Shown piece after piece: positions 5,546-7,576 of a DNA stretch of 44,805 nt. A program made the position numbers and the translations under genes. Source of the DNA: Sulfurospirillaceae bacterium (GTDB taxonomy: Bacteria > Campylobacterota > Campylobacteria > Campylobacterales > Sulfurospirillaceae); contig JAQUVE010000006.1 of assembly GCA_028693565.1 (NCBI GenBank), positions 1-44,805 on the forward strand, written 5' to 3'. Below the pieces are notes generated by a model, which saw only the letters and a program-made list of their open reading frames with translations, was not told where the DNA came from and did no database searches. The stretch's first letter is position 1. Each line of letters starts with the position of its first letter.

Positions 5546-6313
5546 ATGACCCAAGAAGAACTAGATGCTTTAATGGCTGGTGATATAGATGATACACAAG
5601 AAGATGCTCCTGCAGAAATAGAACGAGAAGAAGATGAGCCTTTGGATGAGGAGGTTACATCAACAGACGCAGATGAGGAATCGTGTTGTGAAGAATCAAT
5701 GGATGAAGCGCTTACAGAAGAGGAAGTTATCCATAAGCAAATGCATGAATACAGACCCAATGCTTCAGCCTCATGGCCGCCACCTCCACCCACAGATGAC
5801 CATAAAATGGTTTATCAACTTGATGATGTGACAAAAGATTCTGAAATTAAAGCAGGGCAAGTTTTTGACAGACTGGAAGCCGTCAATAACTTTATGGTTG
5901 AAGCTGAACAAAATGCTAAAGATGTTATTGCTTTGATTGAAAGTAATATTACATTATTTGGAACTTTGGTGACAAAATTCCCTAAAATTGATCAGTTCCA
6001 AGATGCACTCAACGATAATAAATCAATGAAAAACAAAGTTGAAGCGCTCTTGATGAATGCTCAAATGGCTGAAGATGAAATCATGATGACAATGGATATT
6101 ATGCAATATCAAGATATCCACAGGCAAAAAATTGAACGTGTTATCAATGTAATGCGCGCTCTTTCAAAATATATGAGTGCTTTATTTGAAGGGTCTAAAG
6201 ATGATTCAAAACGTGTAGGCTCTGCGGTACATATTCACGGGGATGAAACTACTGAAGACGTTGTAACGAGTGAGGACATAGAAGCCTTGATTGCAAGTTT
6301 AGGAAAAAAATAG
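5546..6313 (+). CDS. cheZ: chemotaxis protein CheZ, remote type (HP0170/Cj0700-like), CheY-phosphate phosphatase
   Basis: The product has 255 residues. An acidic N-terminal region (about 1-75, very rich in Asp/Glu) is followed by a short poly-proline patch (WPPPPPTDD). A long helical part then carries the CheZ active-site pattern DxxxQ in QYQDIHRQKIERV (Asp190, Gln194), matching E. coli Asp143/Gln147. The C-terminus, SEDIEALIASLGKK (242-255), resembles the CheY-binding tail of E. coli CheZ. The N-terminus, MTQEELDALMAGD, resembles the CheY-P-binding N-terminus of FliM/FliY. CheZ removes phosphate from CheY and so sets flagellar switching. The next gene's TTG start follows the stop directly, as in the Cj0700-Cj0701 pair. 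Confidence 0.85.
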   Translation: MTQEELDALMAGDIDDTQEDAPAEIEREEDEPLDEEVTSTDADEESCCEESMDEALTEEEVIHKQMHEYRPNASASWPPPPPTDDHKMVYQLDDVTKDSEIKAGQVFDRLEAVNNFMVEAEQNAKDVIALIESNITLFGTLVTKFPKIDQFQDALNDNKSMKNKVEALLMNAQMAEDEIMMTMDIMQYQDIHRQKIERVINVMRALSKYMSALFEGSKDDSKRVGSAVHIHGDETTEDVVTSEDIEALIASLGKK

Positions 6314-7576
6314 TTGAATAATGTTGAACTGCTTTCTCCGGCTGGAAATTTTGATAAATTAAAAATTGCTTTAGCTTATGGCGCTGATGCTGTTTATGCG
6401 GGGGTAAGTCATTTTTCGCTTCGTATCCGTTCAGGCAAAGAGTTTACGTATGAAAGTTTTGAAGATGCTATCAACTTTACACATACACAAGGGAAAAAAC
6501 TTTATGTGACAGTCAATGGTTTTCCCTTTAATGCTCAAATTGCCCTCTTGGAAAAACATATTGAGCGTGTAGCGGCTATGAACCCTGATGCCTTTATTGT
6601 TGCAGCACCAGGCGTGATTAAATTAGCACAAAAGATTGCACCGCATATTCCGATTCATCTTTCAACACAAGCCAATGTCCTGAGTTATCTTGATGCTGAG
6701 GTTTATTATGATATGGGTGTCAAACGTATTATCGCTGCTCGTGAAGTGAGTTTAAAAGACTTAGAGCAAATCAAAGCGCATTTGCCTAAACTTGAGCTAG
6801 AAGTATTTGTTCATGGATCTATGTGTTTTGCCTACAGTGGGCGATGTCTCATTAGTTCTGTTCAAAGTGGTCGTGTGTCGAACCGTGGAAGTTGCGCCAA
6901 TGATTGCCGTTTTCCCTATACACTTTATGCCCATAATGAAGAGAGTGGGACACTGTTTAGGATGGAAGAGAGCGAAGAAGGCACGCATATCATGAATGCT
7001 AAAGATCTCAATTTAAGCGCTCATATCAAAGATATTTTAGATGCAGGAATTATTGATTCACTCAAAATTGAAGGGCGAACAAAAAGCTCTTATTATGTGG
7101 GTATTACAACAAAAACTTATCGCCAAGCAATTGATGATTATTATGCAAATATATTTGATGCATCAAAATATATGCAGGAGCTAGATACAACCAAAAATCG
7201 TGGTTTTAGTGATGGCTATTTGGTCAACCGCCCGTATGAAAAAAATGATACTCAGAATCTTGCACATTCTATCAGTGAAGGCTCACATCAGGTTGTTGCT
7301 GAAGTTGGAGAAGATGGACAAACGTGTCTTTGCAAAGATAAATTAGCTTTGAATATAAGCTACGAATTGGTTTTACCACAAGAGCATCAATGTGTTTTAG
7401 AGACGGATAATGCAATCGGTAAAATATGTTTGGAAGAGGGAATTTGGAAGATTATGTTCCGCGAACTCAAAACGAGTAATGGAAAGAGCTATGAGGAGAT
7501 TCACAGCGGCAATACCAATGCAATTGTTTTACCATTAACACTTCCTGCATTTACATTTTTAAGAAATAAGATATAA
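6314..7576 (+). CDS. U32 family protein, TrhP/YegQ-like (tRNA uridine hydroxylation)
   Basis: The 420-residue product begins with the U32 hallmark ELLSPAGNFDKLKIAL and has the cysteine-bearing signature running through GSMCFAYSGRC, SNRGSCANDCRFPY and SLKIEGRTKS. Older annotation calls these collagenase-like peptidases (PrtC). E. coli members TrhP and RlhA are now known to be needed for prephenate-dependent RNA hydroxylation, so an RNA-modification role is more likely than proteolysis. The length and C-terminal half fit TrhP better than RlhA. The start is TTG immediately after the cheZ stop, with the A-rich end of cheZ (AGGAAAAAAA) as a possible Shine-Dalgarno. Confidence 0.85.
   Translation: MNNVELLSPAGNFDKLKIALAYGADAVYAGVSHFSLRIRSGKEFTYESFEDAINFTHTQGKKLYVTVNGFPFNAQIALLEKHIERVAAMNPDAFIVAAPGVIKLAQKIAPHIPIHLSTQANVLSYLDAEVYYDMGVKRIIAAREVSLKDLEQIKAHLPKLELEVFVHGSMCFAYSGRCLISSVQSGRVSNRGSCANDCRFPYTLYAHNEESGTLFRMEESEEGTHIMNAKDLNLSAHIKDILDAGIIDSLKIEGRTKSSYYVGITTKTYRQAIDDYYANIFDASKYMQELDTTKNRGFSDGYLVNRPYEKNDTQNLAHSISEGSHQVVAEVGEDGQTCLCKDKLALNISYELVLPQEHQCVLETDNAIGKICLEEGIWKIMFRELKTSNGKSYEEIHSGNTNAIVLPLTLPAFTFLRNKI

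Follow-up and report, generated by a model that had tools for sequence, protein, structure and literature searches.

An N-terminal FliM-like motif conserved in the CheZ phosphatases of Campylobacterales, a candidate second handle for CheY

Introduction

Why should a chemotaxis phosphatase begin with a peptide that resembles the CheY-P-binding end of a flagellar rotor protein? The question is raised by a cheZ gene at 5546..6313 (+ strand) in a stretch of DNA of 44,805 nucleotides from a Sulfurospirillaceae bacterium (assembly GCA_028693565.1, contig JAQUVE010000006.1), referred to here as the window. The preliminary description of this locus read the product as a CheZ with a FliM-like N-terminus and an E. 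coli-like CheY-binding C-terminal tail, separated by an acidic region and a poly-proline patch, and named conservation of the N-terminal motif in relatives as one test of its reading. CheZ itself is already known, and the FliM-like motif appears to be undescribed: the literature search found no account of such a motif for CheZ, with an earlier remark in the main H. pylori CheZ papers being possible.

Results

Identity and neighborhood of the window cheZ

The gene codes for a Campylobacterota-type, and thus remote, CheZ phosphatase of 255 aa, starting with an ATG that has a Shine-Dalgarno-like sequence (TTTTTAGGAGATACCTA) immediately upstream, a good ribosome-binding site. The NCBIfam model NF041271 (Phos_CheZ) matches over its full length (1–242) at 1.1e-64, with a score of 218.3 bits against a curated cut-off of 350, and the Pfam CheZ model PF04344 matches weakly (0.0025; 18.2 bits, cut-off 30.7). 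The NF041271 cut-off is passed in just 22 of 249 genomes of the class, and these curated cut-offs are naming thresholds, not biological features. Immediately downstream is a U32 peptidase/TrhP-like gene from the ORF list (6314..7576, +), the conserved partner of cheZ; the cheZ-trhP gene order is that of the phylum (PMC9321776). The full-length match and the conserved synteny together support orthology with H. pylori CheZ, with which the window protein also has the family, the DxxxQ motif and the C-terminal tail in common. The closest named relatives are in Sulfurospirillum and Sulfurospirillaceae genomes, and no relatives were found among viral contigs.

The catalytic DxxxQ (D190 and Q194, within QDIHRQKIERV; 6113..6127, +) does not vary among 34 aligned relatives, and its residues are the counterparts of D189 and Q193 of H. 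pylori CheZ (PMC11237671). The H. pylori orthologue has experimentally reported CheY-P phosphatase activity (PMC11237671 and references therein); the same activity is putative for the window protein. The relationship to E. coli CheZ is distant: a CheZ-core profile reaches 1KMI at a weak E of 0.025, the catalytic helices being aligned, a whole-protein PDB search with the window CheZ gave no match, and a fold comparison had generic helical hairpins alone among the matches listed, 1KMI not being one of them. The two proteins have in common a catalytic D and Q on the second helix of a long hairpin, a flexible linker and a C-terminal CheY-binding helix.

Architecture of the protein

The first residues are MTQEELDALMAGD, of which residues 1–10 (MTQEELDALM; 5546..5575, +) form a FliM-like, EIDALL-type motif recognized by conservation, by a FliM profile and by structure prediction. 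AlphaFold2 predicts a helix at residues 3–11 (block pLDDT 73), disorder to about residue 85, a confident hairpin with helices at 88–144 and 149–215, and then a disordered stretch followed by a C-terminal helix at 242–254. The motif is thus predicted to be an N-terminal helix on a disordered tether. The tether comprises an acidic, variable linker (residues 11–76; 5576..5773, +; block pLDDT 34–53) and a WPPPPP patch read directly from the sequence (residues 77–82; 5774..5791, +), around which residues 71–86 are moderately conserved (mean major-residue fraction 0.51). The hairpin forms the CheZ core (5807..6190, +; block pLDDT mostly above 90). Judging from the helix spacing, the active site at 190–194 would lie close to where the hairpin opens and both tethers exit. 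The C-terminal tail (TSEDIEALIASLG, residues 241–253; 6266..6304, +) lies within the terminal sequence TSEDIEALIASLGKK, which aligns with the E. coli CheZ tail ASQDQVDDLLDSLGF (PDB 1KMI). Reading of the sequence and a check against the 1KMI tail thus bear out the identification of the gene and of both its ends, and the acidic region and poly-proline patch lie between the two motifs as described.

Conservation of the N-terminal motif

Of 175 CheZ-family ORFs of the Campylobacterales, 165 have the motif or a recognizable trace of it. The ORFs came from genomes of the class and 80 named contigs; the contigs were retrieved with a profile of the core only, so the N-terminus had no influence on their retrieval. 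The ten ORFs lacking it are accounted for by a masked contig, a contig end, a draft genome whose start codon is disrupted, and seven paralogs that are short or decayed. The draft is that of Campylobacter jejuni 414, where AATAG stands in place of the cheZ start codon before ACTCAAGAA, probably through an indel or an assembly error. Among 61 representatives less than 70% identical, positions 1–10 have a mean entropy of 0.43 bits, a value that describes variation where the motif exists, since the representatives were drawn from the motif-bearing set; in the same proteins the catalytic helix has 0.54 bits, the C-terminal tail 1.34 and the linker 2.7–2.8. Conservation of the motif therefore about matches that of the catalytic helix and exceeds that of the tail, and the 60 or so residues that follow it are nearly free to vary. 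Identical motif residues are specified by different codons in 44% of comparisons; such synonymous variation points to selection at the protein level and rules out a constraint on the DNA or on the start region. An order-wide N-terminal motif in Campylobacterales CheZ is real, and the test of conservation set beforehand came out decisively in its favor.

The CheZ of a genus that passes the NF041271 cut-off, probably Helicobacter, also begins MTQEELDALM. By contrast, neither E. coli CheZ (MMQPSIKPADEH...) nor the CheZ proteins of Cupriavidus, Halomonas and Photobacterium have such an N-terminal motif; all of these have a DQVDDLLDSLGF-like C-terminal tail.

Resemblance to FliM

FliM of the same genome begins MADILSQEEIDALLE, and the window CheZ carries the consensus [ST]QxE[IL]DAL[LM] at its N-terminus. 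The pattern [ST]QEE[IL]DAL[LM] is common to the motif and to the N-terminal EIDALL helix by which FliM (and B. subtilis FliY) binds CheY-P, as are the CheY-contacting Q, I/L, D and L and the placement of the helix at the N-terminus on a flexible tether. The host proteins differ, one a rotor protein and the other a phosphatase. The readable part of FliY in the window's genome has no such N-terminal motif.

A profile built from Campylobacterota FliM N-termini, run against 1958 ORFs (the fetched loci and the window), recovered at E<=1 all 30 FliM proteins, 133 of about 147 CheZ proteins and three others, one of them likewise a CheZ. The window CheZ scores E 0.22; taken singly the matches are weak, and the result draws its strength from the enrichment of CheZ. 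A loose Qx[DE][ILMV][DE]AL-type DNA pattern matches four times in the 2.78 Mb genome and its reversed control not at all, and only in FliM and CheZ is the match placed N-terminally. The DNA pattern search and the 1958 ORFs together constitute the genome-wide estimate of chance.

Elsewhere in the genome, a lipoprotein-like ORF (L186, C59), probably non-cytoplasmic, has ILSQTEIDALV in mid-protein at residues 83–93. Its ILSQTEIDAL string seems to resemble the FliM motif by chance, and CheY binding is accordingly not provable from sequence alone.

Contact residues and the CheY groove

The published contact table for FliM and CheY (PMC3774744) pairs FliM Q8 with the backbone of CheY V108 and D12 with K119, and packs I11 and L14 against CheY I95, A99 and Y106. 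These four E. coli FliM residues (Q8, I11, D12 and L14) correspond to Q3, L6, D7 and L9 of the window CheZ. The upstream FliM contacts D3, S4 and L6 are not matched: the first residue of the CheZ peptide, Met1, is the counterpart of FliM L6, which leaves the D3 and S4 contacts absent, and Met1 itself may be removed before Thr2.

The partner groove is present in the same genome. Its F3 CheY, encoded next to prmA and very similar to H. pylori CheY of known structure (3.7e-60), keeps K92, V95, Y106, V108 and K119, so that the FliM-binding groove (I95, Y106, V108, K119) is present as V95, Y106, V108 and K119. At the corresponding positions, the CheA receiver has R95, T108 and V119, and CheV-type receivers diverge more; with the groove residues absent, these receivers are disfavored as natural targets of the motif. 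Nine places in the genome have CheW domains (C217, C230, C74, C99 and C136; L225–L233), so it has multiple chemosensory arrays in addition to the F3 cheVAW set of C230.

Arcobacteraceae-type CheZ, paralogs and remnants

Thirteen CheZ entries (L193–L205, two being the same gene fetched twice and others near-identical) carry one to four additional EIDALL-like motifs in their linkers, such as TKEIEALL, DNDIDALL and NDDIDDLL, with four copies in the extended disordered linker of L205. The mean is 1.6 extra motifs per linker, versus 0.06 in shuffled linkers, and 152 other CheZ proteins have none. These entries are assigned to an Arcobacteraceae type on the basis of cheY-cheZ lying inside the flagellar gene cluster, which is the Arcobacter arrangement; Arcobacter genomes encode several CheY proteins each (PMC9321776). 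The CheY adjacent to these CheZ genes keeps the groove.

The same genomes contain short second CheZ paralogs of about 119–162 aa. Both end motifs are kept in two of these (L211 and L212), and in the others (L213–L217) the N-terminal motif is gone and the catalytic helix and C-terminal tail are mostly kept. CheZ remnants are also found in genus g33 of family f14: in two (L207 and L208) the N-terminal motif, the catalytic Gln and the tail are lost together, and in a third (L206) the core is degraded and MNQEELDALM is kept. Five genomes of family f18 (G046, G062, G064, G069 and G085) have a divergent FliM and no CheZ match, as would fit a replacement of the flagellar system like the one described for Nitratiruptor.

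Discussion

A docking peptide outside the catalytic machinery

We think it probable that the N-terminal motif is an accessory docking peptide for CheY-P, separate from and additional to the catalytic C-terminal tail. Campylobacterota CheZ would then be a helical-hairpin CheY-P phosphatase with a short CheY-docking helix at either end, each on a flexible tether. The C-terminal tail would act as in E. coli, docking CheY-P and delivering it to the D190/Q194 active site. MTQEELDALM, a copy-like counterpart of the FliM helix, would most likely bind the same alpha4-beta5-alpha5 groove of CheY. The two peptides cannot share the groove of one CheY simultaneously, which suggests an auxiliary capture site: the N-terminal peptide might raise CheY-P locally around CheZ, hand it to either active site of a dimer, or buffer it in competition with FliM.

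Deletion data from H. pylori bear directly on this. CheZ lacking residues 1–39, a region given as of "unknown function", is unaffected in phosphatase activity and in CheZ-dependent biofilm formation and initiation, and loss of the last 12 residues affects both activity and the biofilm phenotype (PMC11237671). The N-terminal motif is thus not part of the catalytic machinery, and the difference between the two deletions counts against the docking-peptide reading, as do the short Arcobacter-type paralogs that lack the motif and retain the catalytic helix and tail. The neutral outcome of the N-terminal deletion may, however, reflect saturating conditions, since an auxiliary capture site should make a difference at low CheY-P. 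The joint loss of motif, catalytic Gln and tail in decayed remnants counts for it. The earlier proposal of two CheY-binding-like motifs in one phosphatase stands in part: both motifs are real, the CheY contacts and their groove are retained, and the N-terminal motif has no place in catalysis. CheY binding by the N-terminal peptide is putative, and it could serve either to hold two CheY per chain or to compete with the switch.

A broader version is more tentative. Campylobacterota CheZ could be a multivalent trap for CheY-P, with N-terminal, C-terminal and, in the Arcobacteraceae type, up to six docking helices on disordered tethers, which would compete directly with FliM and set CheY-P buffering and the supply to the phosphatase. 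Copy number would be adjusted lineage by lineage, perhaps in step with how many CheY paralogs there are.

Other partners and roles

The main alternative, which we regard as unlikely though worth serious attention, is that the motif mimics FliM to bind FlhG, the MinD-like regulator of flagellar number, and so ties CheZ to C-ring assembly or the flagellar pole and not to CheY. The N-terminus of FliM mediates its interaction with FlhG (PMC12826062), and flhF with an adjacent MinD-like gene occurs in 18 of 18 genomes checked, so that an attempt to exclude FlhG through its absence in Arcobacteraceae failed and FlhG stays a rival partner. Polar localization of C. jejuni FlhG requires the C ring, but stable contact of FlhG with any C-ring protein was undetected in that organism (PMC6946799). 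H. pylori CheZ is itself polar, with phosphatase activity independent of the N-terminus (PMC11237671). Against FlhG, the conserved Q and D correspond to CheY contacts, and multiplication of the motif would better suit a diffusible, abundant ligand. The localization of H. pylori CheZ reportedly maps to its central domain and ChePep (Lertsethtakarn, 2015), which also counts against FlhG.

Somewhat less likely again is binding to another chemotaxis partner, such as ChePep, CheO or the CheA receiver domain, for localization or regulation. ChePep-dependent localization of CheZ runs through the central domain, and the CheA receiver groove is without the residues that contact FliM; both observations count against this. 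In its favor, C. jejuni CheO binds CheZ, FliM and FliY (PMC9665402) and the motif is common to FliM and CheZ, but the FliY of the window's genome, a protein of a kind bound by CheO, lacks the motif in its readable part.

We give little credence to a self-decoy, in which the motif takes up the CheY-docking position or the partner hairpin and holds CheZ inhibited until displaced by CheY-P. Peptides of the same type at both ends, on tethers probably long enough to reach either active site, would allow it; the H. pylori N-terminal deletion is reported as neutral, however, and not activating (PMC11237671). A resemblance by chance, or a constraint on the translational start region with no function in the protein, is scarcely credible: acidic amphipathic helices are easily made and one apparent chance match occurs in the genome, but the conservation and controls rule chance out as the source of the CheZ motif, which is near-invariant across 61 divergent representatives whose synonymous codons differ and whose adjacent linker is free.

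Significance

In the group to which Campylobacter and Helicobacter belong, CheZ determines how long the steering signal lasts. A motif that exceeds the catalytic tail in conservation, and that can reportedly be removed with activity intact, suggests that a layer of control over CheY-P (or FlhG) has been missed, and makes for a candidate second CheY handle on CheZ that has been overlooked so far. The role of the CheZ N-terminus could be probed directly using a single peptide and four point substitutions, and the repeats in Arcobacteraceae provide a natural series of motif copy numbers.
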